Source: Comamonadaceae bacterium
GTDB taxonomy: Bacteria > Pseudomonadota > Gammaproteobacteria > Burkholderiales > Burkholderiaceae_C
Length of the DNA: 11,647 bases
Direction: 5' to 3'
Assembly (NCBI GenBank): GCA_947457975.1
Contig: CANGYC010000049.1
Location: forward strand, 1-11,647
Shown: positions 1 to 11,435 of the stretch, in pieces
Layout: every line of letters starts with the position of its first letter
Numbering within the stretch: the first letter of the stretch is position 1
Made by a program: the position numbers and the translations under genes
Notes under the pieces: generated by a model
Told to the model about the DNA's origin: nothing
The model's input: only the letters and a program-made list of their open reading frames with translations
Databases searched by the model: none

Positions 1-816
1 CGAGAGCATGTTCAGGCCCTCGATGTAATCGGCTGCATTCTTCTTGTCGCCGGAGACCACCAGCCAGCCAGCACGGTATCCGCAGGAGCGGTAGCTCTTG
101 GACAGCGAGTTGAAGGTGAGCGTGAGCACGTCCTCAGAGAGGCTGGCAATCGGGGTGTGGCGCACGCCGTCGTACAGCACCTTGTCGTACACCTCGTCAG
201 CGAAGATCACGAGCTCGTGCTCACGGGCGATGGCCACGATCTGCTGCAGCAGCTCGGTAGAGTACAGCGCCCCGGTGGGGTTGTTCGGGTTGATCACCAC
301 GATGCCCTTGGTGTGAGGCGTGATCTTGGCGCGGATGTCGTCGAGGTCGGGCATCCAGCCCTTGGACTCGTCGCACAAGTAATGCACGGGCGTGCCACCG
401 GAGAGCGAGGCCGCCGCCGTCCACAGCGGGTAGTCCGGGGCGGGCAGCAGCAGCTCGTCGCCATCGTTGAGCAGGCCATTGGTGGCCATGACGATGAGCT
501 CGCTCGCCCCGTTGCCCAGGTAGATGTCATCGAGCGTAACGCCCTTGATGCCCTGCTTCTGGGTCTCGTGCATCACGGCCTTACGGGCGGCAAAGATGCC
601 CTTGGAGTCGGAATAACCTGCCGAGGCCGGCAGGTTGCGGATCATGTCCTGCTGGATTTCCTCGGGCGAGTCAAAGCCGAAAGAGGCCAGGTTGCCGATG
701 TTGAGCTTGATGATCTTGTGGCCGTCCTCCTCCATGCGCCTGGCCGCGTCCATGATCGGACCCCGGATGTCATAGCAGACATTGGCAAGCTTGGCGGATT
801 TGGTGATGGGCTTCAT
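1..816 (-). CDS. alaA: Alanine-type PLP aminotransferase (AlaA-like), C-terminus beyond window
   Basis: This is a fold-type I, class I/II aminotransferase, most likely making alanine from pyruvate and glutamate in the cytoplasm. Reading from ATG 816 leftward gives 272 open codons with no stop before the edge; AlaA proteins are about 405 residues, so roughly the last third is missing. The N-terminus (MKPITKSAKLANVCYDIRGP) closely matches my memory of E. coli AlaA. Visible landmarks are GNGASEL (101-107), the NPNNPTG loop (176-182), FADEVYDK (205-212, with the Asp that contacts the pyridine nitrogen) and SLSKSYR, whose K240 is the expected PLP lysine. Upstream of the ATG there is only a weak CAGG ribosome-binding sequence. 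It is divergent from the Mth938-domain gene. In Burkholderiales it is commonly followed by hom and thrC, which would lie outside this window. The family is certain; the exact substrate is inferred from similarity. Confidence 0.93.
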   Translation of the reverse strand, partial: MKPITKSAKLANVCYDIRGPIMDAARRMEEDGHKIIKLNIGNLASFGFDSPEEIQQDMIRNLPASAGYSDSKGIFAARKAVMHETQKQGIKGVTLDDIYLGNGASELIVMATNGLLNDGDELLLPAPDYPLWTAAASLSGGTPVHYLCDESKGWMPDLDDIRAKITPHTKGIVVINPNNPTGALYSTELLQQIVAIAREHELVIFADEVYDKVLYDGVRHTPIASLSEDVLTLTFNSLSKSYRSCGYRAGWLVVSGDKKNAADYIEGLNMLS

Positions 817-872
817 GGTGGCGGCCTGGGTGCGCAAGCCCCCATGGGCGGGGCCTGCCGTATCGAGCGAAA

Positions 873-880
873 CCTATAAT
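873..880 (+). promoter_or_regulatory. Possible -10 element for the Mth938-domain gene
   Basis: A perfect TATAAT lies at 875-880, in an AT-rich island between two divergent genes and about 78 bases before the chosen start at 958. No good -35 hexamer sits 16-18 bases upstream (the position holds GGCCTG). On the other strand the same bases read TATAGG (873-878), which could serve the divergent aminotransferase. It is called on the -10 match and the divergent context only. Confidence 0.4.
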
Positions 881-957
881 TTGACCACATAAACACGGCC
901 ATGCAGCCGGCCAGCGAGCACCCGCCGCGCCCGCCCCGGCCCACCCCAGGATCTCCC

Positions 958-1356
958 ATGAAACTGCAGCCCGACCGCTCGGACTCCCCCACCATCCTGG
1001 GCTACGGGCCCGGCTGGATAGGCCTTGGCCACCAGGGGGTGGCCGAGAAGGTACAGCACAGCCTGGTGATCGGATCGCACGGGGAAAAACTCGATTGGAC
1101 CTGCGCCCGTTTCGAGCAGCTGACGGCCGAGCACTTCGACCGGCTGGCCGAACTGCAACCCGAGCTTGTGATCTTCGGCAGCGGCACCAAGCTGCGCTTC
1201 GTGCCGCCCCAGTTCCTCAGGCAGCTCATGGCGCGGCGCATCGGGGTGGAAACCATGGACACGGTGGCCGCGTGCCGCACCTACAACATACTGGCCGGTG
1301 AAGGCCGCCATGTGGTGGCCGCTCTCCTGCTGGAGGTCGAGGACAGCACAGCTTAG
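958..1356 (+). CDS. Mth938-domain (DUF498) protein
   Basis: A 132-residue single-domain protein of the Mth938 / DUF498 family, whose eukaryotic relatives include AAMDC and the complex I assembly factor NDUFAF3. The bacterial proteins have no established biochemical role, so I assign none. Family landmarks are GYGPGW (15-20), VIFGSG (71-76), ETMDT (98-102) and NILAGEGRHVVAALL (110-124). I start at ATG 958 rather than the in-frame ATG 901. AGGA at 948-951 sits 6 bases before 958, 901 has no ribosome-binding site, and the extra 19 residues would be a proline-rich tail unlike the family. It is divergent from alaA and 158 bases before the peroxiredoxin gene on the same strand. Confidence 0.85.
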   Translation: MKLQPDRSDSPTILGYGPGWIGLGHQGVAEKVQHSLVIGSHGEKLDWTCARFEQLTAEHFDRLAELQPELVIFGSGTKLRFVPPQFLRQLMARRIGVETMDTVAACRTYNILAGEGRHVVAALLLEVEDSTA

Positions 1357-1375
1357 CGAATCGCCCCTTTGAGGG

Positions 1376-1412
1376 TAAAATCACGGGTTCTGCATACGGG
1401 AAAAGGCGCCTT
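1376..1412 (+). promoter_or_regulatory. Possible promoter -10 and palindrome before the peroxiredoxin gene
   Basis: The 158-base gap between the Mth938 gene and the peroxiredoxin holds a TAAAAT at 1376-1381 that could be a -10 element, with only a poor TTAGCG at the -35 position. It also holds a perfect 10-base palindrome AAGGCGCCTT at 1403-1412. No terminator is visible after the Mth938 gene, so read-through is equally possible. Confidence 0.28.
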
Positions 1413-1514
1413 GGAGGGCTCTTTTTCCTGCAAGCTCGAGCAAAAGCCAGCAAGAAGCCGACAGACTTCGGGCCGCAAGGCCAGACATAACTTTCCAATC
1501 AGGGTTCACGCAGC

Positions 1515-1991
1515 ATGGCAGTCGTCGTCAACAAACCAATCCCCGAATTCGAAGCGGTCGCCACCGGTGGCGTGAAGGTCACCAACCACAGCCATGTGGG
1601 CAAGGTCGTGGTCCTTTACTTTTACCCCAAGGACAACACGCCGGGCTGCACCACTGAAGCCATGCAGTTCCGCGACAAGTACAAAGACTTCGTCAAGGCC
1701 GGCGCGCTGGTGTTCGGTGTGTCCCGCGACAACATGAAATCGCACGAAGACTTCAAAGCCAAGCTGGAGCTGCCCTTCGAACTGATCGCCGACACGGAAG
1801 AAAAGATGTGCCACATGTTCGGCGTGGTCAAAAACAAGATCATGTATGGCAAGAAGGTCAAGGGCATCGAGCGCAGCACCTTCTTGGTCGGTGCCGACGG
1901 CCTGCTCAAAGAAGAGTGGCGCGGCCTGAAGGTGCCGGGCCACGTCGATGAGGTGCTGCTGGCGGTGAAGAACCTCAAGAAAGCCGCCTGA
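1515..1991 (+). CDS. bcp: Bcp/PrxQ-type peroxiredoxin (thiol peroxidase)
   Basis: A 158-residue thioredoxin-fold peroxidase that reduces hydrogen peroxide and organic hydroperoxides in the cytoplasm. The active-site block YFYPKDNTPGCTTEA (35-49) places the peroxidatic cysteine at C45, with T42 and P43 in the conserved TPGCT pattern and R71 downstream in VSRDN. The length matches the Bcp family (about 155). The usual resolving cysteine five residues after the peroxidatic one is absent: residue 50 is Met. The only other cysteine is C99 (EKMCHMFG), which aligns with a cysteine in E. coli Bcp that, as I recall, is not its resolving residue. The start is ATG 1515, preceded by a weak AGGG at 1501-1504. 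An intrinsic terminator follows at 2081-2109. The family is firm; the catalytic cycle (1-Cys or another partner) is open. Confidence 0.93.
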   Translation: MAVVVNKPIPEFEAVATGGVKVTNHSHVGKVVVLYFYPKDNTPGCTTEAMQFRDKYKDFVKAGALVFGVSRDNMKSHEDFKAKLELPFELIADTEEKMCHMFGVVKNKIMYGKKVKGIERSTFLVGADGLLKEEWRGLKVPGHVDEVLLAVKNLKKAA

Positions 1992-2023
1992 GCCCCTGGT
2001 CTTTCCTCGAGGATAAAGGGTCA

Positions 2024-2040
2024 TATGCCTCGTGCATAAT
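2024..2040 (+). promoter_or_regulatory. Inverted repeat overlapping a possible -10 box
   Basis: TATGC (2024-2028) and GCATA (2034-2038) form a 15-base dyad. The right arm overlaps CATAAT (2035-2040), a possible -10 element. No convincing -35 is present. If used, transcription would start near 2047 and soon meet the terminator at 2081-2109. Confidence 0.22.
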
Positions 2041-2080
2041 GATCCGATGCAGTTGATTCTCGCAACCGCTTCCCCGGACG

Positions 2081-2109
2081 AAGCCGCCTTGGCCTCAAGG
2101 CGGCTTTTT
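2081..2109 (+). terminator. Intrinsic terminator between bcp and phoH
   Basis: A perfect 10-base stem, AAGCCGCCTT (2081-2090) and AAGGCGGCTT (2097-2106), closes a 6-base loop, GGCCTC. The T-run at 2105-2109 completes a textbook Rho-independent terminator on the plus strand. It lies 90 bases after the peroxiredoxin stop and 52 bases before the PhoH start, so it ends the peroxiredoxin transcript or a short leader RNA. Confidence 0.88.
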
Positions 2110-2160
2110 CATTTCCGGGTGTCTCCTGATGAGCGTTCCACCCACTGATCCTCAAGTACC

Positions 2161-3891
2161 ATGCCCCTGCCACCTGCCCCGACCAAAAGAGCCGCCCTCC
2201 TCGCCAAAGACGCCTACCAGACCCCGGCCCGCTCTGCATCGAAGGGGGGCCGCAGGCAAACCGCCCGGGATGAGTCCGAGCCATCCCCTGAAACCCAGAG
2301 CCATCCCGTCGCCTTGCAGGCCGACAACGTCCGCCTGAGCACACGCCCCACCGGCCGCAAGACAAGCCCCGCGTCGGACCGGTCGGAGCCGTCCAAAGTC
2401 CGGCAGACTGCAGTGCGCTCAGAGGAGTCAATAGCCGCTGCGGCCGAGGAGATGCCCAAGGGGCGCCGCGAGCCGCGGCGCGCGGCCCGCAAGCCCACGG
2501 GACCGACCAAGCTCTTCGTGCTGGACACCAACGTGCTGATGCACGACCCCATGTGCCTGTTCCGCTTCGAGGAACATGACATCTTCCTGCCCATGATCGT
2601 GCTGGAAGAACTCGACAGCCACAAAAAAGGGATGACCGAGGTGGCCCGCAATGCGCGGCAGACCAGCCGCACCCTGGACGCCCTGGCCGCCGAGCAGGGG
2701 GCCGACATTGCCAAGGGCCTGGTCCTGAGCAGCACCGGCCACACTGAGGCGCGGGGCTGCCTGATGTTCCAGACCCAGCCGCTCAGTGGCGACTTGCCCA
2801 TGGCACTGCCCCAGGGCAAGGCCGACAACCAGATCCTGGGTGTGGTCGAGGCCCTGCGCAAGGCACAGGCGCCACGCGAGGTGGTGCTGGTGTCCAAGGA
2901 CATCAACATGCGGGTGAAGGCCCGCGCGCTGGGCCTGCTGACCGAGGATTACCGCAACGACAAGGCGCTGCAGGACGGCGACCTGCTCTACGCGGGCTCG
3001 CTCGCCCTGCCGCCCGATTTCTGGACGCGCCAGAGCAAGACCATCGAGAGCTGGCAGCAGGGTAGCCACACCTTCTACCGCATCAGCGGCCCCATCGTGG
3101 ACAGCCTGCTGATCAACCAATTCGTGTTCTTCGAGGCGGCGGGCGAGCCTTCGCTGTATGCCCGCGTCACGGAGATCCGTGGCAAGACGGCGGTGCTCAA
3201 GACCCTGAAGGACTACACCCACCTCAAGAATGCGGTGTGGGGCGTGACCACCCGCAACCGCGAGCAGAACTTCGCCATGAACCTGCTCATGGACCCGGAG
3301 GTCGACTTCGTCACGCTCACGGGTACGGCCGGCACGGGCAAGACCCTGATGGCTCTGGCCGCGGGATTGACGCAGGTGCTGGATGACAGGCGTTACACCG
3401 AAATCATCATGACCCGGGCCACCGTCTCTGTGGGCGAGGACATCGGCTTCCTGCCTGGCACCGAGGAAGAGAAGATGGGACCCTGGATGGGCGCCCTCGA
3501 CGACAACCTGGAGGTGCTGGGCAAGAGCGACAGCGGCGGCGCCGGCGAATGGGGCCGCGCGGCCACCAATGAACTGATCCGTTCGCGCATCAAGGTCAAA
3601 AGCATGAACTTCATGCGCGGCCGCACCTTCCTGAACAAGTACCTCATCATCGACGAGGCGCAAAACCTCACGCCCAAGCAGATGAAGACACTGATCACCC
3701 GGGCCGGCCCGGGCACCAAGATCATCTGCATGGGCAACCTGGCGCAGATCGACACCCCCTACCTGACCGAGGGCTCCTCGGGCCTGACCTATGCGGTCGA
3801 CCGCTTCAAAGGCTGGCCGCACGGCGGGCACATCACCCTGGCCCGGGGTGAGCGCTCGCGTCTGGCCGACTTTGCCAGCGAGGTTCTCTGA
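2161..3891 (+). CDS. PIN-PhoH family protein (PhoH2-type RNase/ATPase)
   Basis: A 576-residue cytoplasmic protein joining a PIN ribonuclease domain to a PhoH P-loop ATPase. In characterised PhoH2 proteins this pair acts as an ATP-dependent RNA-unwinding endoribonuclease. Residues 1-115 are a Ser/Pro/Arg-rich, probably disordered extension. The PIN domain (about 117-260) shows its acidic set in FVLDTNVLMHD (D122), VLEELD (149-152), KADNQ (D222) and VSKDIN (D247). The ATPase has Walker A GTAGTGKT (388-395) and Walker B YLIIDEAQN (494-502). I keep ATG 2161 because MPLPPAPTKRAALL resembles N-termini I recall from Comamonadaceae homologues, although no strong ribosome-binding site precedes it. It stands alone between two terminators. 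No antitoxin-like small gene precedes it, unlike the mycobacterial PhoAT-PhoH2 pair. Confidence 0.92.
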   Translation: MPLPPAPTKRAALLAKDAYQTPARSASKGGRRQTARDESEPSPETQSHPVALQADNVRLSTRPTGRKTSPASDRSEPSKVRQTAVRSEESIAAAAEEMPKGRREPRRAARKPTGPTKLFVLDTNVLMHDPMCLFRFEEHDIFLPMIVLEELDSHKKGMTEVARNARQTSRTLDALAAEQGADIAKGLVLSSTGHTEARGCLMFQTQPLSGDLPMALPQGKADNQILGVVEALRKAQAPREVVLVSKDINMRVKARALGLLTEDYRNDKALQDGDLLYAGSLALPPDFWTRQSKTIESWQQGSHTFYRISGPIVDSLLINQFVFFEAAGEPSLYARVTEIRGKTAVLKTLKDYTHLKNAVWGVTTRNREQNFAMNLLMDPEVDFVTLTGTAGTGKTLMALAAGLTQVLDDRRYTEIIMTRATVSVGEDIGFLPGTEEEKMGPWMGALDDNLEVLGKSDSGGAGEWGRAATNELIRSRIKVKSMNFMRGRTFLNKYLIIDEAQNLTPKQMKTLITRAGPGTKIICMGNLAQIDTPYLTEGSSGLTYAVDRFKGWPHGGHITLARGERSRLADFASEVL

Positions 3892-3915
3892 AGCTCAGCG
3901 TTTGGGACACCAAGC

Positions 3916-3942
3916 AAAAAGGCAGCCCAGGCTGCCTTTTTT
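3916..3942. terminator. Bidirectional intrinsic terminator between phoH and phaR
   Basis: GGCAGCC (3921-3927) pairs with GGCTGCC (3930-3936), with a tiny apical loop. The stem is flanked by AAAAA on the left (3916-3920) and TTTTTT on the right (3937-3942), so it carries a T-run on both strands. It sits between the converging ends of the PhoH gene (plus) and phaR (minus), as expected for a shared terminator. Confidence 0.9.
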
Positions 3943-3965
3943 CATGGAGATGGCGCTGAAGCCGC

Positions 3966-4613
3966 TCAGCGCTTGAGGCCGAAGCTCGAAAGCATCTGCT
4001 CGCCCTGCTTGTGCAGCTGCTCCTGCATCTGGGAGAACAGCTGCTTGGACTGCTCCATGTAGGTGCCCATGACGCCCGAGACCATGGGCGTCTGCTGGCT
4101 GAGCAACTGGCTCCAAGCCTCGGGACTCAGGCCCTTGGACTGTTCGGCGAACTTACCCTGCAACTCCATCAAGGTCTGGATGTTCTTTTCCAGGTAGGTG
4201 CCCATGAAACCCTGCATGGCGTTGCCATAAAAGCGAATGATGTTGGCCAGCACCTGTTCGGTGAACATGGGCGCGCCACCGGCCTCTTCCTCCAGGATGA
4301 TCTGCAGCAGGATGCTGCGGGTCAGGTCCTCGTTGGCCTTGGCATCGCGCACCACGAAGACCGAGCGCCCCATCACCAGTTCGCGCACATCGGCCAAGGT
4401 GATGTAGGTGGAGGTCTTGGTGTCGTAGAGGCGGCGGTTGGGATACTTCTTGATGATGCGCACGGCCTGCGCGGGCTCAGCGTCCTGAGCGGCGTCGGTG
4501 GGAGGCGCTGTGCTGCCAGCCTTGGCCTGACGCGGCGCGGCAGCCGCCTTGCTGGAGCTTGAGGCCTTGGCACGGCGCTGGGCCGCGGGGCTGTCGGATG
4601 GTTTTTTCTGCAA
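3966..4613 (-). CDS. phaR: Polyhydroxyalkanoate synthesis regulator PhaR
   Basis: A 215-residue DNA-binding regulator that represses phasin and PHA-granule genes and is released by binding polymer or granules. Residues 1-49 are an Ala/Lys/Ser-rich tail. RIIKKYPNRRLYDTKTSTYI (52-71) opens the PHB/PHA accumulation regulator DNA-binding domain, followed by the polymer-associated region from about 95. MGTYLEKN (137-144) and MGTYMEQS (182-189) are two copies of a short helical unit. The start is a TTG at 4613, backed by a strong AGAGGA six bases upstream. The only nearby ATG is out of frame. It ends at the shared terminator with phoH. A MarR gene lies 123 bases upstream on the same strand. TAGAAT at 4662-4667 (minus) could be its -10. 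No PHA synthase is in the window. Confidence 0.94.
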   Translation of the reverse strand: MQKKPSDSPAAQRRAKASSSSKAAAAPRQAKAGSTAPPTDAAQDAEPAQAVRIIKKYPNRRLYDTKTSTYITLADVRELVMGRSVFVVRDAKANEDLTRSILLQIILEEEAGGAPMFTEQVLANIIRFYGNAMQGFMGTYLEKNIQTLMELQGKFAEQSKGLSPEAWSQLLSQQTPMVSGVMGTYMEQSKQLFSQMQEQLHKQGEQMLSSFGLKR

Positions 4614-4661
4614 GGCGTTCCTCTCTGTCCAGCCATGCCGAGATGGCCGGATGACCCTGGC

Positions 4662-4667
4662 ATTCTA
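4662..4667 (-). promoter_or_regulatory. Possible -10 element for phaR
   Basis: On the minus strand these bases read TAGAAT, one mismatch from the consensus -10, about 50 bases before the TTG start of phaR. The matching -35 position holds TCCGCC, a poor match, so the alternative of co-transcription from the MarR gene remains open. Confidence 0.3.
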
Positions 4668-4736
4668 AGAACAGGGGCCATGCCGGCGGAGGGGAGTTTC
4701 CCTGTTCGTGGCCTGCGCCGCGCGAAAAACCAGGCT

Positions 4737-5240
4737 TCAGCGCACTGCGGTCTCGGGCTCGTCCTGCTCGAGGTTGTCAATCATGCGCAGCATGGTCTGG
4801 CGAAAGAGGGACACCTCCTGGGCCGTCATGCCCCGGATCAGCACCGCATTGACCTCCTCAGCCAGCGGCACCAGCCTGGCCTTGAGGGCTCGGCCTTCAG
4901 GAGTGAGGCTGACACTGATGTTGCGCAAGTTGCTGGGCAGCTTGCGGCGGGTGATGTAGCCCTGCTTTTCCATGGACAGCAGCGCGCTGTAGGTGGTGGG
5001 CTCGCTCACGCCGGCCAGCTCGCTGAGCTCGCGCTGGGTCATGCCATCGCGCTCCCACAAGATACGCAGAAAGGTCCAGTGGCCAATGGGCACCGAATGC
5101 TCGGCCAGCCGCACCTGCAGGGCCCGTTGCAGGGTGCGCATGAGGTCCTTGACCACATGGGCGAGTCGATCGTTGGGCACGGCCTCGCGCCATTTGCGCA
5201 GGCCCGCTGGAGATACCGCATCAGTGTCTTGCTTGCTCAT
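4737..5240 (-). CDS. MarR-family transcriptional regulator
   Basis: A 167-residue winged-helix repressor of the MarR family, expected to act as a dimer. The helix-turn-helix and wing span about 50-115: GMTQRELSELAGVSEPTTYSALL (66-88) contains the recognition helix, and RRKLPSNLRNISVSLTPEG (98-116) is the wing. The Asp of the usual wing pattern D-x-R is Asn here (N104-L-R106). Flanking helices (25-48 and 118-160) would form the dimer interface. The start ATG at 5240 has AGGA eight bases upstream. It precedes phaR on the same strand with a 123-base gap and no visible terminator. The ligand and targets cannot be read from sequence; the inverted repeats at 5345-5416 upstream are candidate operators. 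Confidence 0.9.
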   Translation of the reverse strand: MSKQDTDAVSPAGLRKWREAVPNDRLAHVVKDLMRTLQRALQVRLAEHSVPIGHWTFLRILWERDGMTQRELSELAGVSEPTTYSALLSMEKQGYITRRKLPSNLRNISVSLTPEGRALKARLVPLAEEVNAVLIRGMTAQEVSLFRQTMLRMIDNLEQDEPETAVR

Positions 5241-5344
5241 CGATCTGTCCTGAAAAGGGGCTGGGCATGCTCCACACCCGGACCAGCCTGTTAGAAGAAT
5301 AACTTACCGAGCTCATGCATCAGCCTGTCTTACCAGAACCGGAA

Positions 5345-5367
5345 GGACAAACATCGTCTGCATGTCC
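5345..5367. promoter_or_regulatory. Inverted repeat in the intergenic region (candidate operator)
   Basis: GGACA (5345-5349) and TGTCC (5363-5367) flank a 13-base spacer, giving a 23-base dyad. It lies between the divergently read MarR gene and the small gene at 5453. The size suits a dimeric repressor, but the arms are short and chance is possible. Confidence 0.3.
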
Positions 5368-5376
5368 TGCCCACAT

Positions 5377-5416
5377 TAGGGCAGAAAGACCACTGCGCCT
5401 GGCATGCACTGCCCTA
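5377..5416. promoter_or_regulatory. Widely spaced 8-base inverted repeat (candidate operator)
   Basis: TAGGGCAG (5377-5384) and CTGCCCTA (5409-5416) are perfect inverted copies with 24 bases between them and centres 32 bases apart, about three helical turns. They lie 36 bases before the start of the small gene at 5453. The phasing would let two protein subunits bind the same face of the DNA. No binding protein can be named. Confidence 0.35.
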
Positions 5417-5452
5417 GGATGAAGCGCATGGTCATACGCGGGAGAGACAAGG

Positions 5453-5764
5453 ATGACAAACACCAGCGCAGTGCTCATGGATGAGGAGCACCTCCAGGAA
5501 ACCGTTCAGGCCCTGAGCACCCTCTCGCTGTGCCAGCAAGGACAGATCATGGCCCTGGTGGCCGCCGTCGATGCCATGCTGGCCGTGCTGTGCAAGGCCA
5601 CACCTGCGCAAGCCCCAGCCTTGGCCGCCCACCTGGATGTGTCAGCGCGAGACCATCGCCAGGAGGACTGGGCGGCAGACCAGCGAGTCGCCTTCGATAA
5701 CCATATCCGGCGCCTGCAGACGCTGCTGCTCCTGCTGCAAAAGGCCGGCATGCTGCGCGCCTGA
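5453..5764 (+). CDS. Small protein of unknown function, 103 residues
   Basis: I do not recognise this protein. It is a soluble-looking, mostly helical sequence with no signal peptide or clear membrane span. A first helix-rich half (10-50) contains two cysteines (C27, C47). An acidic/basic middle follows (64-82), then a leucine-rich amphipathic end, RRLQTLLLLLQKAGMLRA (86-103). It is supported as a real gene by GGAGAG (5441-5446) six bases before the ATG and by its position between two annotated genes with no competing frame. It ends 17 bases before the end of the convergent LysR gene. It is divergent from the MarR gene and could be its target, which is inference from position only. Confidence 0.65.
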   Translation: MTNTSAVLMDEEHLQETVQALSTLSLCQQGQIMALVAAVDAMLAVLCKATPAQAPALAAHLDVSARDHRQEDWAADQRVAFDNHIRRLQTLLLLLQKAGMLRA

Positions 5765-5781
5765 TGCCGGCGCCTGGGGCC

Positions 5782-6681
5782 TCAGTCCACCATGCGCTGC
5801 GCGACAAACTCGCGCAAGACGCCCATCACGGGCGCCTCGCTGCGGCCGGCCAGCGTGACGTAGGCAAAGCGGGCCGTGGCCTTGAGGGCCGGCCGCACCG
5901 GCAGCACGGCCATGGCGCCGGCCTCAATGCGCTCGCGCGCGGTGGCCAGCACCCCCAGCAGCACCGCGTCGGTGCGCTCGACCACATCGATCAGGCTTTC
6001 CACGTCATTGCATTCCAGGGTGACCATCTGGGCCGGATTGGCCTGCGGCCCGTACTGCTCAACTAACTGGCGGCTGACCTCATCCGACAGCGGTGTGGAG
6101 GCCACGGGGTAGGTCAGCAGGTCGGAGAGGGCGACGCTACGCCGCGCCAGCAAGGGATGAGCGCTGCGCACCAACCACCCACCGGCCATTTCAGCCACGG
6201 GCTCAATGCTCAGATCACTGTCCGGTGGCAAGGCACGCATGTCCACGATGAGCGCATCGAGCTGCCGCGCCCGCAGTTGCACCAGTTGCAGCTCGGTCGG
6301 CCCGCGCACCACCCGGACCTGCACCTGCGGCTGGTGGCGCGCCATGTGGCACATCAAAGGGGTCATGAGGATCGCGCCCGGCCCTGAACCCAGGCCCAGG
6401 CGCATGGTGCCGGCATTGGCCTGGCGCATCAGCTCGGCGCCGCGCTTGAGCTCCGAGGCCTCCAGCACGATGCGCCGGGCCCGCTCCATGACCTGCCGGC
6501 CCAGAGGCGTGAGTTCATTGCGCTTGCCCACGCGGTCCAGCAGCCGGCCATCGACCTCCATCTCCAGCGCCTGGATGCTGCGGCTCAAGGCCGACTGGGT
6601 GAGGAACAACTTGTCGGCGGCCCTGCTGAAGGAGCCGCTCTCGGCCACGGCCAGGAAGTGCTCCAGGTGACGGATGTTCAT
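5782..6681 (-). CDS. LysR-family transcriptional regulator
   Basis: A 299-residue LysR-type regulator, the usual family length. Residues 1-60 form the winged helix-turn-helix (HLEHFLAVAESGSFSRAADK at 5-24, then LTQSALSRSIQALE). The effector-binding domain runs from about 90 to the end. I start at ATG 6681 (MNIRHLEHFL), the canonical family N-terminus; the frame stays open to a GTG at 6780 but nothing supports that extension. The gene is divergent from the Bug binding protein, with an LysR-style dyad in the shared 149-base gap, so it probably controls that binding-protein/amidohydrolase operon and itself. The inducer is unknown; the neighbouring genes suggest an amino-acid conjugate or a product of its breakdown. 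Confidence 0.93.
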   Translation of the reverse strand: MNIRHLEHFLAVAESGSFSRAADKLFLTQSALSRSIQALEMEVDGRLLDRVGKRNELTPLGRQVMERARRIVLEASELKRGAELMRQANAGTMRLGLGSGPGAILMTPLMCHMARHQPQVQVRVVRGPTELQLVQLRARQLDALIVDMRALPPDSDLSIEPVAEMAGGWLVRSAHPLLARRSVALSDLLTYPVASTPLSDEVSRQLVEQYGPQANPAQMVTLECNDVESLIDVVERTDAVLLGVLATARERIEAGAMAVLPVRPALKATARFAYVTLAGRSEAPVMGVLREFVAQRMVD

Positions 6682-6709
6682 GCCCAAGCCCTTAATCGAT
6701 GAGTTATCC

Positions 6710-6733
6710 GCATTATTATTCTGAAAATAATGC
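6710..6733. promoter_or_regulatory. LysR-type binding dyad between divergent genes
   Basis: Two nested symmetric elements lie here. GCATTATT (6710-6717) and AATAATGC (6726-6733) form a perfect dyad with an 8-base spacer. Inside it, ATTAT (6715-6719), seven bases, and ATAAT (6727-6731) give the 5-7-5 layout with T-N11-A (T6717, A6729) typical of LysR boxes. The site is 29 bases from the LysR start and just upstream of the putative -35 of the binding-protein gene, the normal place for an activator that also represses itself. Confidence 0.6.
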
Positions 6734-6734
6734 A

Positions 6735-6764
6735 TTGGACACATGTTTTTCTCAGGCCTAGCAT
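6735..6764 (+). promoter_or_regulatory. Putative promoter of the Bug binding-protein operon
   Basis: TTGGAC (6735-6740) and TAGCAT (6759-6764) are imperfect -35 and -10 elements with an 18-base spacer, placed directly after the LysR dyad. The predicted start near 6771 would leave a 60-base leader before the ATG at 6831. Weak hexamers are normal for an activator-dependent promoter. Confidence 0.42.
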
Positions 6765-6830
6765 TTGACCGTCCGTGCACAAGCCGTCACGGTCCTCACG
6801 CATCAACAGCACCCACCAGGAGACAAGACC

Positions 6831-7829
6831 ATGACCGCCAGCAAACGTTTCTTTCTGCGCCAGGCTGCGGCCGCCCTCGCCGGCCTGAGCCTGGCAGGCG
6901 CCGCCTACGCCCAGACCTTCCCCTCCAAGCCCGTGACCCTGATGGTGCCCTACCCGGCCGGCGGCTTGTCGGACGTGATCGCCCGCACACTCAACAACGC
7001 CCTGTCCAAGCAACTGGGCCAGCCCGTGCTGGTGGAAAACCTGGGTGGCGCCAGCGGCGGCATCGCCGCGCAGAAGGTGCTGGCCAGCCCCGCAGACGGC
7101 CACATCATCTTCCAGGGCTCGCCCAATGAGCTGGTGATGGGCCCCATGGCCAATGCAGCCCTGAAGTACAAGCCTGAGGACTTCCGCCTGGTGCAGATGA
7201 TCACCCTCAACCCCATGGCCATGTTTGCCCGCAAGGACCTGCCGGCCAACAACGGCGAAGAACTGCTGGCCTACGCCCGCAAGTCCGCCGCCGAAGGCAA
7301 ACCCCTGACCTATGCCAGCGTGGGGCCCGGCTCCATGTACCACCTGCTGGGCGAGCACCTGTCCAAGCAAACGGGCATCCCCATGACGCACGTGCCCTAC
7401 AAGGGCGCTGCCCCCGCGTTCCAAGACATGATGGCCGGCCTGGTCGATGTGTTCATGACCCCCTACGGCAGGGGACAGGTCGCCCTGGTCGACGATGGCA
7501 AGCTCAAGGCCGTGGCCGTGCTCTCCAGCGATCGGCAAGACCTCGTCAAGAAAGCCGCGCCCCTGAATGACACGCCCGCCCTCAAGGGCTTCGTGTTCGA
7601 CACCTGGGCCGGCTACTTTGTGCGCAGGGACACGCCCGAGCCCATCGTGCAGGCCCTGCACAAGGCCCTGAGCGAAGTCGCCAACGACCCGGCCGTGCGC
7701 AGCGCCCTGGAGGCGCACGCCATGATCGTGCCGCGCCCGCAATCGCTTGCGGCCATGAGCAAGGTCTACGCGGACAACACCGAACGCTACCGCGCCATTG
7801 CCCGCGCCATCAACCTGCAGCCGCAATGA
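6831..7829 (+). CDS. Tripartite tricarboxylate transporter (Bug-family) solute-binding protein
   Basis: A 332-residue periplasmic solute-binding protein of the Bug/TctC family, very abundant in Burkholderiales. Residues 1-27 are a signal peptide (SKRFFLRQ, a hydrophobic Ala/Leu core, then cleavage after AYA); the KR before FFL gives it a slight Tat flavour. The mature part begins QTFPSKPVTLMVPYPAGG. VPYPAGGLSDVIAR (39-52) is the ligand loop with the conserved Asp (D48), and HVPYKG (187-192) is the second family landmark. The ATG at 6831 has AGGAGA seven bases upstream; an upstream TTG at 6765 in the same frame has no support. Its stop overlaps the next start (ATGA at 7826-7829), so it is co-translated with the amidohydrolase. 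No TctA/TctB membrane genes are in the window. The ligand cannot be read from sequence. Confidence 0.93.
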   Translation: MTASKRFFLRQAAAALAGLSLAGAAYAQTFPSKPVTLMVPYPAGGLSDVIARTLNNALSKQLGQPVLVENLGGASGGIAAQKVLASPADGHIIFQGSPNELVMGPMANAALKYKPEDFRLVQMITLNPMAMFARKDLPANNGEELLAYARKSAAEGKPLTYASVGPGSMYHLLGEHLSKQTGIPMTHVPYKGAAPAFQDMMAGLVDVFMTPYGRGQVALVDDGKLKAVAVLSSDRQDLVKKAAPLNDTPALKGFVFDTWAGYFVRRDTPEPIVQALHKALSEVANDPAVRSALEAHAMIVPRPQSLAAMSKVYADNTERYRAIARAINLQPQ

Positions 7830-9010
7830 AGCGCGAGCCCTACCTGGGTCAGGCGCTGGCCGATCGCATCGGCGAGTTCGTCAGCCTCAGGCGCGACATC
7901 CACGCCCATCCCGAACTGGCTTTTGAAGAGCAGCGCACGGCGGCTCTGGTGGCCTCTAAGCTGCAGGCCTGGGGGTACACCGTGACCTCGGGCCTGGGCA
8001 AGACGGGGGTGGTGGGCACGCTCAAGCGCGGCCAGTCTTCCAAAAGCCTGGGGCTCAGGGCCGACATGGATGCGCTGCCCATCCACGAGAAAAACACGGC
8101 CCTCTGGGCCAGTGCCAGCCCTGGCCGCATGCACGCCTGCGGCCATGACGGCCACACCGCCACCCTGCTGGCGGCAGCGCGCCACATCGCTGAAGACGTG
8201 GACTTCAATGGCACCCTGAACCTCATCTTCCAGCCGGCCGAAGAAGGCGCGGGCGGCGCACTGGCCATGATGGCCGATGGCCTGTTCGAAAAGTTCCCCT
8301 GCGACGCGGTCTTCGCCTTTCACAACATGCCAGGCCAGGCGACAGGGCACTTCACCTTCCGCAGCGGCCCCATGATGGCCTCCAGCGACTACGCCACCAT
8401 CGTGCTGCACGGCCATGGCGGGCACGGTGCCATGCCGCACCGGGCCTGCGACCCGGTGGTGGCCTCGGCCTCCATCGTGATGGCGCTGCAGTCTGTGGTC
8501 TCTCGCAATGTCGACCCACTGCACACCGCCGTGGTCACGGTGGGTGCCCTCCATGCAGGCGAGGCCAACAACGTGATTCCGCAGGAAGCGCGCCTGGAGC
8601 TGAGCGTGCGCGCCCTGGACCCCGAGGTCAGGCAGCTGCTGCGCCGGCGCATCTTCGAGCTGGTCGAGCAGCAGGCCGCCAGCTTTGGCGTGCGCGCCGA
8701 GATCGACTGGCGCCAGGGCTACGCCGTGCTGGTCAACAGCGACAAGGAAACCCGCTGGGCCACGGACCTGGCCTGCGAGCTCTTCGGGGACGATCGGGTC
8801 ACGCGCCACGGCGCGCCCCTAACGGGCAGCGAAGATTTTTCCTTCATGCTCGAGCGCGTGCCTGGCAGCTACTTCCTCATCGGCAACGGCGCCGCCGGCA
8901 CGCCCGGCGGCTGCATGGTGCACAACCCCAGCTACGACTTCAACGACGATCTCATCGAGCCCGGTGCACGCTTTTGGGCCCACCTGGTGTCGCGTTACCT
9001 CGACGGCTGA
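7826..9010 (+). CDS. M20-family amidohydrolase (hippurate hydrolase-like)
   Basis: A 394-residue cytoplasmic metallo-amidohydrolase of the M20D group, which cleaves N-acyl or N-aroyl amino acids (hippurate, N-acetyl amino acids, indole-acetyl conjugates) to the acid plus the free amino acid. LRRDIHAHPEL (21-31) opens the catalytic domain. Expected metal ligands are C105 and H107 in HACGHDGH (103-110), the Glu pair E139/E140 in PAEEG, H166 in FAFHNMPG and H366 in MVHNP. LRADMDALP (77-85) is also typical. The lid/dimerisation domain covers roughly 185-295. No signal peptide is present. Its ATG overlaps the binding-protein stop by four bases, implying translational coupling. A glycine riboswitch begins about 12 bases after its stop, which hints that glycine is one product. 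The family is firm; the substrate is inferred. Confidence 0.93.
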   Translation: MKREPYLGQALADRIGEFVSLRRDIHAHPELAFEEQRTAALVASKLQAWGYTVTSGLGKTGVVGTLKRGQSSKSLGLRADMDALPIHEKNTALWASASPGRMHACGHDGHTATLLAAARHIAEDVDFNGTLNLIFQPAEEGAGGALAMMADGLFEKFPCDAVFAFHNMPGQATGHFTFRSGPMMASSDYATIVLHGHGGHGAMPHRACDPVVASASIVMALQSVVSRNVDPLHTAVVTVGALHAGEANNVIPQEARLELSVRALDPEVRQLLRRRIFELVEQQAASFGVRAEIDWRQGYAVLVNSDKETRWATDLACELFGDDRVTRHGAPLTGSEDFSFMLERVPGSYFLIGNGAAGTPGGCMVHNPSYDFNDDLIEPGARFWAHLVSRYLDG

Positions 9011-9021
9011 TTCCATCCACC

Positions 9022-9206
9022 CTCGCGCATCGGGAGAGACCGCCCTGCCTGCAGGGTGGCGCCGAAGGAGCAACCGCCCCGGAAACTCTCAGGCCAAAGG
9101 ACCGCTGCGCGAACCGACTCTGAAGAGCTGCCGGACCCGTCATCCGGCACACCGCAGGAGCAAACCGGCCCGTCCGGTGAATCTCTCAGGTTCCAAACAG
9201 AGGGGG
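9022..9206 (+). promoter_or_regulatory. Tandem (two-aptamer) glycine riboswitch
   Basis: Two glycine aptamers in series. Aptamer 1 is closed by UCGCGCA (9023-9029) with UGCGCGA (9106-9112). It has GAGAG (9034-9038) with CUCUC (9086-9090), a hairpin CCCUG/CAGGG (9043-9047, 9052-9056), the core GCCGAAGGAGCAA (9061-9073) and CUCAGGCCAAAGGACCGC. Aptamer 2 is closed by CUCUG (9118-9122) with CAGAG (9198-9202). It has hairpins GCCGGA/UCCGGC (9130-9135, 9143-9148) and ACCGG/CCGGU (9164-9168, 9174-9178), the core ACCGCAGGAGCAA (9151-9163) and CUCUCAGGUUCCAAACAGAGGGGG. Both match the family by eye. It starts about 12 bases after the amidohydrolase stop, so it is either read through from that operon or has a promoter inside the preceding gene; I found no convincing one. 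It controls the oxidoreductase at 9265. Confidence 0.95.
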
Positions 9207-9258
9207 CGTGCCAGGCACACGGTGTGCCTGGTGCTGTCCTTCCCGACCCTGTTTGGAG
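9191..9258 (+). promoter_or_regulatory. Riboswitch expression platform that can mask the Shine-Dalgarno
   Basis: UUCCAAACAG (9191-9200) can pair without interruption with CUGUUUGGAG (9249-9258), ten pairs with one G-U at the end. The right strand contains the whole Shine-Dalgarno GGAG (9255-9258) of the next gene. The left strand includes 9198-9200, which also belong to the P1 stem of aptamer 2 (9198-9202 with 9118-9122), so the two helices cannot coexist. A strong hairpin, CCAGGCAC/GTGCCTGG region (9208-9234), fills the loop between the strands. There is no U-run, so control of translation rather than termination is inferred: glycine would stabilise P1 and free the ribosome-binding site. Confidence 0.7.
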
Positions 9259-9264
9259 CCCTTC

Positions 9265-10524
9265 ATGAAAAGCATCGCAGTCATTGGTGGCGGCATCACC
9301 GGCGTGACCACCGCCTACGCCCTGGCCCGCCGCGGCCTGACCGTCACCCTCTACGAGCGGCATCCCTATGCCGCCATGGACACCTCGTTTGCCAACGGCG
9401 GCCAGCTCTCGGCCTCCAACGCCGAGACCTGGACGCATCCGTCCACCCTGCTCAAGGGCCTGAAATGGATGCTGCGCAAAGACGCCCCTTTGCTGGTGAA
9501 CCCCAAACCCAGCTGGCACAAGCTGTCGTGGTTCGCCGAATTCGCAGCCAGCATCCCGAAGTACGAGTCCAACACCATCGCCACCACCCGCCTGGCCATT
9601 GCGGCGCGGGCGCATCTGTTCGCCTGGGCGCAGGCCGAGGGCATCGACTTCGACCTGCGCCGCGAAGGCATCTTGCACATCTACCGTGACCGGCAAGGCT
9701 TCGAACATGCCGGCCGCGTCTCCAAACTGCTGGCCGCCGGCGGTCTGGAGCGCCGGGCGGTGACGCCCGAGGAGATGCGCAGCATCGAACCCACGCTCGC
9801 TGGCCAGTACTTCGGCGGCTACTACACCGAGAGCGACTCGACGGGCGACATCCACAAGTTCACCCAGGGCCTGGCGCGGGCCTGCGAGCGTTTGGGGGTG
9901 CGCATCCTCTACGGCCAGGCCGTGCACCAATTGCACAGCGATGGCCAGCAAGCCCGCGTCAGCACCGGTGCAGGCAGCGCAGAGGACACGCAGCACTACG
10001 ACGGCCTGGTGGTGTGCGCCGGCGTGGAAAGCCGCCGGCTCGCCGCCCAGCTGGGCGATCGCCTTAATGTGTACCCGGTCAAGGGCTACTCCATCACGGT
10101 GAACCTGCTCGACGAGGCCAGCCGCGCGGCGGCCCCGACCGTGAGCCTGCTCGACGACGAGACCAAGCTGGTCACCAGCCGCCTGGGCGCCGAGCGTTTT
10201 CGCGTGGCGGGCACGGCCGAATTCAATGGCTTTAACCGCGACATCCGTGCCGACCGCATCCGGCCGCTGGTCGACTGGGTGCGGCAGTGCTTCCCCGGCG
10301 TGAGCACCCGGCAGGTGGTGCCCTGGGCGGGTCTGCGCCCCATGATGCCGGACATGATGCCCCGCGTCGGGCCCGGCAAGCGGGCCAATGTGTTCTACAA
10401 CACCGGGCACGGCCACCTGGGCTGGACCCTGAGTGCCGCCACGGCAGACCTGCTGGGCGAACAGGTGATGGCCGGTGGCGCCCTGCAGGGCTCAGGCCTG
10501 CCGCCGGGCATCGCGGCCGCCTGA
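9265..10524 (+). CDS. dadA: DadA-like FAD-dependent D-amino acid dehydrogenase / amino-acid oxidoreductase
   Basis: A 419-residue FAD enzyme of the DAO superfamily, closest by eye to D-amino acid dehydrogenase small subunits (DadA), which oxidatively deaminate amino acids and pass electrons to the respiratory chain at the inner membrane. The Rossmann nucleotide-binding motif is IAVIGGGITGV (4-14; GxGxxG at 8-13), with E31 expected to bind the ADP ribose. FANGGQLSASNAE, GLRPMMPD (356-363) and NTGHGHLGWT (379-388) are DadA-family landmarks. The start ATG 9265 has GGAG (9255-9258) six bases upstream; the frame extends to GTG 9208, but that would lie inside the riboswitch platform. Control by a glycine riboswitch suggests glycine as a substrate, giving glyoxylate and ammonia. 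That is inference: a classic DadA acts mainly on D-alanine. Neither a racemase (dadX) nor the Lrp-type partner is adjacent. Confidence 0.9.
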   Translation: MKSIAVIGGGITGVTTAYALARRGLTVTLYERHPYAAMDTSFANGGQLSASNAETWTHPSTLLKGLKWMLRKDAPLLVNPKPSWHKLSWFAEFAASIPKYESNTIATTRLAIAARAHLFAWAQAEGIDFDLRREGILHIYRDRQGFEHAGRVSKLLAAGGLERRAVTPEEMRSIEPTLAGQYFGGYYTESDSTGDIHKFTQGLARACERLGVRILYGQAVHQLHSDGQQARVSTGAGSAEDTQHYDGLVVCAGVESRRLAAQLGDRLNVYPVKGYSITVNLLDEASRAAAPTVSLLDDETKLVTSRLGAERFRVAGTAEFNGFNRDIRADRIRPLVDWVRQCFPGVSTRQVVPWAGLRPMMPDMMPRVGPGKRANVFYNTGHGHLGWTLSAATADLLGEQVMAGGALQGSGLPPGIAAA

Positions 10525-10540: not shown

Positions 10541-10571
10541 GGCGCCTTAGGCCAGCGCGCCTTAAGGCGCC
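10541..10571. terminator. Hairpin between convergent genes, possible bidirectional terminator
   Basis: GGCGCCTTA (10541-10549) pairs perfectly with TAAGGCGCC (10563-10571) around a 13-base loop. The right part is also a 14-base perfect palindrome, GCGCCTTAAGGCGC (10557-10570). It lies at the meeting point of the oxidoreductase (plus) and the ModA-like gene (minus), whose stop codon (10562-10564) is inside it. No T-run follows on either strand, so an intrinsic terminator is uncertain. Confidence 0.4.
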
Positions 10572-11314
10572 GCTTCCATGCCCTTGGCCTGCAGGACCGA
10601 ACGCAGCTGCGGGGAGGCCAGGGCCGCCAGCAGCTCGGCCACCGCCTGCGGCTGGGCCGTGGTGGCCGAGGCCGCCGCCGCATAGACCGTGTAGTTCTGA
10701 ATCTCCGCAGGAATCGGCCCGACCAGCACGGCCCCTGGCACAGCGAGGATCTCACTGATCTGGTGCAGGGCCACGTCGGCCGAACGGTCCACCACCTTTT
10801 GCGCCACCAGGCCACCCTGCACCATGACCAATTTCTCGCGCAGGGCGCCAGCAATGCCCCACTGCTCGAAGAGCCTGGCCAGGTAAATACCGCTGGAGCC
10901 GCCCGAGGCCGGATCGATCAGGGCCAGGCGCGGCGTGTCCTGCAGCATTTTCCGGAAGGCCGCCACGCTCGAAATGTCAGGCAGGGGCGCGCCCTGGCGC
11001 ACCGCCACGCCGATGGCCACGCGCGCCACCGGCACCGGCGGCTTCTGCGCCGACAGGTGGCTGGCCTGCAAGGTCTTGAGCGACGCGGGGGTGGAGACCA
11101 CCGCATCAAAGACCTCCCCGCCCGCAATCCGGCGCTGCAGGGCACCGGCCGTGTCATTCAGGATCACCAGGCGGTGCCCGGTGCGTTGTTCGAACTCGGG
11201 CTGCAGGGCCATGAGCACGGGCTTGAAAGCGCCGGCCGTCAGCACCTTCAGTTCAACGGCCTGGGCCAGATGACTGACGCACACCAGGCACAGGGCCAGA
11301 AAAAAACGAGGCAT
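10562..11314 (-). CDS. ModA-like periplasmic substrate-binding protein, stand-alone
   Basis: A 250-residue exported protein of the extracellular solute-binding superfamily that includes ModA (molybdate/sulfate-type, type 2 periplasmic binding fold). Residues 1-19 (MPRFFLALCLVCVSHLAQA) are a signal peptide, and the mature chain starts VELKVLTAG. LVILNDTAGALQRRIAGGEVFDAVVS matches the ModA block around the second ligand loop, and DPASGGSSGIYLARLFEQWG and VVDRSADVALHQISEI match later blocks. The first ligand loop of true ModA (A-S-S) is TAGA here, and the GSSG-like loop is NDTAG, so molybdate binding is doubtful. The start is ATG 11314, with a GGGGAG ribosome-binding site about eight bases upstream. 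An in-frame TTG at 11329 is less likely. No modB/modC permease genes are adjacent. Confidence 0.85.
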   Translation of the reverse strand: MPRFFLALCLVCVSHLAQAVELKVLTAGAFKPVLMALQPEFEQRTGHRLVILNDTAGALQRRIAGGEVFDAVVSTPASLKTLQASHLSAQKPPVPVARVAIGVAVRQGAPLPDISSVAAFRKMLQDTPRLALIDPASGGSSGIYLARLFEQWGIAGALREKLVMVQGGLVAQKVVDRSADVALHQISEILAVPGAVLVGPIPAEIQNYTVYAAAASATTAQPQAVAELLAALASPQLRSVLQAKGMEAAP

Positions 11315-11435
11315 GGAAGTTCTCCCCAAAAAGTACGCGAAGGCATTCTAGGCAGGCCACTGACAGCGACGCTGGCCCGTGGATCGGCGCAGTTCACTAC
11401 GAGCAGCCTGCCTGACCGATGAAGGGATGATCAGA

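Follow-up and report, generated by a model that had tools for sequence, protein, structure and literature searches.

The window, that is, the whole stretch of 11,647 nucleotides analysed here, originates from a 2.3-Mb draft genome (78% complete) of a Comamonadaceae bacterium. An M20 amidohydrolase gene (7826–9010, plus strand; TIGR01891, 354 bits) is located directly 5′ of a tandem glycine riboswitch, and the riboswitch fills the intergenic gap between the end of this gene at 9010 and the start of the next one at 9265. The downstream gene (9265–10524, plus strand) encodes a PRK12409 D-amino acid dehydrogenase (NF009074, 722 bits, cut-off 494), which is a probable DadA6-type glycine oxidase/dehydrogenase. 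The region 6765–9010 of the same strand contains a tctC-like receptor gene, assigned by reading and without an NCBIfam match, followed by the amidohydrolase gene. A ModA-like periplasmic binding protein, whose score is far under the family cut-off, is encoded on the minus strand at 10562–11329. No tRNA was detected by the tRNA scan.

A similar amidohydrolase (56–96% identity) is encoded on the same strand directly 5′ of the riboswitch in 25 of the 80 named loci listed, and the riboswitch would be intercistronic in these loci. The PDB relatives of the amidohydrolase include acyl-amino acid hydrolases, and it may be guessed that the enzyme supplies glycine. At the locus L016 (1560–1700), the amidohydrolase gene passes straight into the dehydrogenase gene, and the riboswitch is absent. 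This is an apparent natural loss of the riboswitch, with possible translational coupling.

According to the Rfam model RF00504 (gathering cut-off of 32), aptamer 1 corresponds to 9021–9114 (63.8 bits) and the diverged aptamer 2 to 9118–9202 (34.7 bits), both on the plus strand. Both covariance-model scores exceed the cut-off, and aptamer 1 is nearer to the consensus, in agreement with the excerpted text of PMC6944388 on GCV genes. RF00504 matches were found in five of the seven loci scanned; two matches above the cut-off were found only in the Cupriavidus necator locus L048 (55.0 and 42.4). This locus also carries a C4 antisense RNA match at 4031–4123 (Rfam RF01695, 55.8 bits). In the cmscan alignment of aptamer 2, P1 is formed by 9118–9122 and 9198–9202, as the preliminary description had proposed. 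The 5′ strand of P1 is nearly invariant in 69 aligned leaders, and P1 yields no covariation because of this near-invariance. The base of P3 is formed by 9151–9153 and 9189–9191 (alignment columns 67–69 and 125–127 mapped onto the window). Thus, two aptamers and one expression platform precede a presumably glycine-catabolic gene, which is the layout of a tandem ON-riboswitch.

The segment 9191–9200 (UUCCAAACAG) can pair with 9249–9258 (CUGUUUGGAG) through nine Watson–Crick pairs and one U–G pair. This ten-position pairing over the Shine–Dalgarno (SD) motif GGAG (9255–9258) had already been described; two extra G–C pairs, 9190–9259 and 9189–9260, extend the helix to 12 contiguous pairs. The anti-SD strand is therefore 9189–9200 and the masked strand is 9249–9260, both on the plus strand. 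The anti-SD strand takes the P3 base, the J3/1 joint and, with 9198–9200, three of the five bases in the 3′ strand of P1 of aptamer 2. Because P1 and P3 of aptamer 2 require these same bases, the bound aptamer and the masked SD are mutually exclusive. The exclusion by P1 had been pointed out before, and the breaking of the P3 base is added here. Between the two strands, a hairpin with a 12-bp stem and a 3-nt loop (9208–9234, plus strand), also anticipated, is present in the letters and in the minimum free energy (MFE) structures, and the consensus fold contains a hairpin at the same place (columns 157–160/170–173).

The MFE structure calculated with ViennaRNA contains the masking helix in all three constructs folded (9011–9290, 9115–9290 and 9185–9290). 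In the first two, the pair probability of the helix is about 1, and the unpaired probability of the SD is about 0. In the ligand-free fold, the SD is thus paired by a strand that the aptamer needs, and the consensus scan of 8900–9400 shows no terminator. When the 3′ strand was subjected to dinucleotide shuffling, a run of 12 pairs between 9021–9207 and 9235–9264, with G–U allowed, appeared in 26 of 1000 shuffles, and a run of 10 in 185 of 1000. The run of 12 is moderately unlikely by chance, so the single sequence gives moderate evidence and the relatives decide. The strand-versus-strand duplex energy in the window is −19.6 kcal/mol, and this value was matched by none of 200 shuffles.

The energy model used here includes neither the ligand nor tertiary contacts. 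In the tandem construct, the masked ensemble is better than the forced-P1 ensemble by 11.5 kcal/mol (−126.1 vs −114.6), and for aptamer 2 alone the masked state is better than the P1 state by 11.3 kcal/mol. When P1 is forced in the tandem construct, the unpaired probabilities of 9255–9258 are 0.05, 0.03, 0.44 and 0.49, and the rest is paired elsewhere. The constrained folds thus agree with a masked ligand-free state, but the expected release of the SD by P1 is incomplete. These results indicate that glycine and tertiary contacts or the folding order must contribute much. The last base of aptamer 2 is 9202, and the masking strand emerges only from 9249. Among the 3′ ends tried, the masking helix is absent at 9250 and first appears at 9255. 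As aptamer 2 is finished before the masking strand, the decision between ON and OFF probably falls during transcription.

The protein scan gave at least 80 named loci. The protein was found in 26 of 150 genomes of the family (E ≤ 1e-100), 13 of 349 genomes of the order (E ≤ 1e-150) and 7 of 369 genomes of the class (E ≤ 1e-130), the own genome being included in each count. In total, 105 loci were examined, resulting in 94 distinct leaders with glycine-aptamer motifs, nine duplicates and two loci without the motifs (L016 and L102); L102 also shows no Rfam match. From 21 further loci, eight of which come from plasmid records, 17 leaders were used, and L117, L119, L122 and L123 were left out. The leaders come from Comamonadaceae, Cupriavidus, Azohydromonas, Stutzerimonas, Halopseudomonas, Halomonas, Aminobacter, Shinella and Paraburkholderia. 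Among the loci listed, the closest relative with a name is L005, a Comamonadaceae metagenome-assembled genome, whose regulated protein is 97% identical.

An alignment of 69 leaders was made by plain MAFFT. It is a part of 86 leaders distinct at 90%, the remaining 17 being L039, L052, L060, L097, L100, L101, L103, L104, L113, L114, L121, L124–L126 and L128–L130. Several of these 17 are weak pairers, and the count was repeated on all 86 with the same outcome. In L116, L118 and L131, the aptamer-2 core escaped the motif search; these three are therefore outside the 86-leader set, but the tree comparison and the test of 103 leaders include them. L101 is outside the test of 22 strand types, L093 (short reading frame) is outside the tree, and L110 (partial gene) was left out.

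For each leader, a duplex energy was calculated between the aptamer strand from CAGG to ACAG (J) and the 32 bases that precede the start (S). The own partners show a mean of −13.0 kcal/mol in 110 leaders, vs −10.4 kcal/mol for permuted partners (sd 0.21; the lowest value in 20,000 permutations is −11.1). With 22 types of J (93 leaders), none of 20,000 permutations reached the observed mean, and the own S set ranks first for seven of the 22 types. Common descent was removed by using 27 leaf pairs with different J and non-overlapping paths in a FastTree tree of the proteins. The own partner is better in 19 pairs, worse in six and tied in two, with a mean of −3.5 kcal/mol (Wilcoxon p 1.4e-4; sign test p 0.007). 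In 200 alternative sets of pairs, every mean was −2.0 or lower.

In the 69-leader alignment, both the covariation score and the fraction of cells that pair exceed all of 500 shuffles and the six versions with slid partners. The cells with two-sided change number 20, vs 6.9 in the shuffles and above all of them, but the version slid by −1 gives 27. Pairs that show two-sided change are not exceptional in number (249 of 500 shuffles). Using all 86 leaders, the paired cells, the two-sided cells and the score each exceed 500 of 500 shuffles. Two-sided changes are seen in L066 (UUCCGCAC/GUGCGGAG), L065 (UUCCAGACA/UGUCUGGAG), L022 (CCAAGAC/GUCUUGG) and L120 (CCAGGAC/GUCCUGG). In L005, four of the window pairs are lost at one end and two are gained at the other, leaving 10 contiguous pairs. 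The same-genus leaders L135 and L136 form 8 and 11 contiguous pairs with other letters, and pairing is weaker in L133 (−10.4; letters as in L008 here) and in L134 (−9.9).

When 3′ fragments of the leaders were folded, at least five bases of the stretch 4–22 nt before the start were paired with the aptamer strand in 97 of 100 leaders. By the same measure, the values are 45% with shuffled strands, 56% with reversed strands and 83% with the strands of other leaders. In most trials, J can still fold with an S strand from another leader because of the similarity among SDs; thus, the covariation signal is real but partial. In these folds, three or four bases of the SD core are on J in 67 leaders, one or two in 16 and none in 14, and the SD core was unrecognised in three. 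RNAalifold of the whole leader gives the aptamer as the consensus fold, and the masking helix is absent from it. This result counts neither way because the two folds are exclusive.

Against shuffles of the own S, the pairing of J and S is significant at the 5% level in 81 of 103 distinct leaders. The other 22 include both alphaproteobacterial leaders (L129 and L130), the Paraburkholderia leader (L131), the Limnohabitans-like leaders L032, L043, L050, L051, L052 and L068, and also L121, L125 and L126. The Limnohabitans-like group, which has no good partner, may use another platform or none. An SD of the GAAAG or GGAAAG type without significant anti-SD pairing was observed in L032, L043, L050, L051, L052, L068, L103 and L126. 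The covariation that the preliminary description expected in relatives is thus found in most leaders, from Burkholderiales and some gammaproteobacteria, in which two-sided changes keep the pairing, but 22 leaders lack significant pairing.

As a rough control, 30 other glycine-riboswitch loci were used, 29 from 60 genomes of the order and one from contig C25 of the own genome; a simple ORF rule was used to place the starts, not always correctly. Seven of the 30 reach the 5% level (L146, L148, L153, L155, L159, L160 and L161), vs 81 of 103 in the studied family. L144 and L162 were unscored, and L140, whose start is badly assigned, itself belongs to the studied gene family.

In 96 of the 103 distinct leaders, GAC is present 14–34 nt before the start, and in the window it is located at 9245–9247 (plus strand), 5′ of the SD. 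The conserved GAC follows a pyrimidine-rich stretch. In the masked state of the relatives, it is a possible tandem G–A partner of AGA in CAGAG. A kink-turn formed by GAC opposite AGA was considered and dropped, because the spacing from GAC to the C-rich strand varies by eye; what is retained as a suggestion is a tandem G–A internal loop. Pairing of the conserved GGGGG after P1 with the P3b loop was also dropped, as several loops appear by eye to have no C-run.

The best PDB sequence matches of the regulated protein are glycine oxidases, with weak similarity (best E 1.3e-16). In the excerpts available, DadA6 of Cupriavidus necator is named glycine oxidase (PMC11879842) and is described as a D-amino acid dehydrogenase orthologue of ThiO (PMC12421819). 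In five of 12 Cupriavidus loci, a site for dadA6-rev, a primer published for checking the deletion, is located about 1.2 kb 5′ of the gene led by the riboswitch, with one mismatch in L044, L048, L059 and L079 and two in L053; the other seven have no such site (at least five mismatches). The forward dadA6 primer is absent from the flanks examined (best, seven mismatches in the five loci). Such a position of dadA6-rev would be appropriate for verifying a deletion from outside the homology arms. The gene at 9265 is probably the orthologue of Cupriavidus DadA6, and judging from this orthology the product probably oxidises glycine to glyoxylate. In the Aminobacter locus L129, the next gene encodes malate synthase G, a glyoxylate-using enzyme. 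The orthology and this neighbour fit a conversion of glycine to glyoxylate that is switched on by glycine. Malate synthase as the usual neighbour was rejected, since it was seen only in this locus among those compared for it, the flanks of which are short.

We consider it highly likely that the tandem glycine riboswitch is a translational ON-switch for glycine catabolism. In the absence of glycine, 9189–9200 would pair with 9249–9260 and hide the SD of the gene at 9265. In the presence of glycine, aptamer 2, helped by aptamer 1, would fold during transcription ahead of the partner strand; P1 and P3 would then hold the anti-SD strand, and ribosomes could start. If the DadA6-type enzyme oxidises glycine, glycine would induce its own breakdown. 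Glycine binding, the ON direction and the folding order are what we infer here. The translational ON reading of the preliminary description is supported by the conservation of both folds, the fitting gene and a closely similar mechanism in Neisseria with mutational support.

Control of the transcription end is an unlikely explanation of the leader. In that case, the hairpin 9208–9234 would act as an intrinsic terminator, or Rho sites would lie open in the untranslated leader. Masked start sites often accompany Rho termination, and the glycine riboswitches L147, L154 and L163 of the same order, before genes that are gcvT-like by reading, carry a hairpin and a U-run. In the window, however, the U-run is missing 3′ of the hairpin, as had been noted earlier, and the consensus scan of 8900–9400 detected neither a terminator-like nor a sigma-70-like site. 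The covarying strand is moreover the SD strand, which argues against termination. That the helix is an unselected by-product of conserved sequences, CAGG and J3/1 in one strand and the SD in the other, is very improbable: own partners beat swapped ones by 19 to 6 in the tree-independent pairs, and two-sided changes occur in L066, L065 and L120. This explanation accounts for the pairing of strands swapped between types in 83% of trials, for the 22 of 103 leaders without significant pairing and for the first rank of the own partner set in only seven of 22 strand types.

A glycine OFF switch, in which the bound state hides the SD in another way, is barely credible. Parts of the SD are indeed paired elsewhere in the forced-P1 fold, but masking of the SD uses the very strand on which the bound form of aptamer 2 depends. 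The product of the gene probably degrades glycine, and the excerpts of PMC13104608 describe tandem riboswitches that precede genes of this type as ON switches. The translational ON-switch is the preferred reading. Within it, a further proposal is made tentatively, and we regard it as possible rather than probable. The riboswitch would represent a widespread subclass, in which J3/1 of aptamer 2 is largely given over to an anti-SD strand that drifts with the ribosome-binding site of each species. Aptamer 1 would be the main sensor and aptamer 2 mainly a lever. In one branch, the riboswitch would lie inside an operon behind a possibly glycine-releasing hydrolase and control the oxidation of glycine to glyoxylate alone.

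The switch provides a translational expression platform that is readable and backed by covariation; according to the excerpt of PMC13273304, such backing has been hard to obtain for expression platforms. The leaders form a large natural series for studying how an aptamer strand evolves under two simultaneous demands. A further prediction is that enzymes of the DadA6 type, which carry the annotation D-amino acid dehydrogenase, are glycine oxidases induced by glycine. This prediction is relevant to strains built for the reductive glycine pathway, in which, according to the excerpts of PMC11879842, deletion of DadA6 as a potentially wasteful sink improved neither the growth rate nor the yield.

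The use of a glycine riboswitch on the DadA6-type gene family looks little described. In the open text covered by our literature search, a PRK12409/DadA-type gene under a glycine riboswitch was not found; it may be printed elsewhere. The passages on Cupriavidus DadA6 in PMC11879842 and PMC12421819 mention no glycine riboswitch, and the passage retrieved for glycine oxidase together with glycine riboswitch concerns TPP and thiO. In other Burkholderiales (L143, L160, L161 and L164), a glycine riboswitch was observed before a gene with a classical DadA-like start, as judged by reading. The own genome contains one further RF00504 riboswitch, on contig C25, which is likewise tandem and is located before a gene that is gcvT-like by reading. 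Its J3/1 (UAAAGAGGAC) has no notable complement in the start region as assigned (−3.8 kcal/mol, a value as low being seen in 71% of shuffles).

A mechanism of the same kind was published in 2026 for gcvT of Neisseria gonorrhoeae with mutational evidence (PMC13104608), and the comparison below follows the excerpts of that paper. Both systems have tandem aptamers with a less conserved aptamer 2 and are read as translational ON switches. In both, P3 and P1 nucleotides of aptamer 2 are paired with the region around the translation start when glycine is absent. For tandem glycine riboswitches, the paper also names a P5 pseudoknot, with reference to Torgerson et al. The gene is different, being gcvT in Neisseria, and so are the sequences. 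The expression platform of Neisseria is reported to be poorly conserved. The evidence there comes from mutants of one species, whereas the evidence for the present switch is covariation across about 100 leaders. Thus, the kind of mechanism was already known, and the novelty lies in the covariation evidence and in the gene family.
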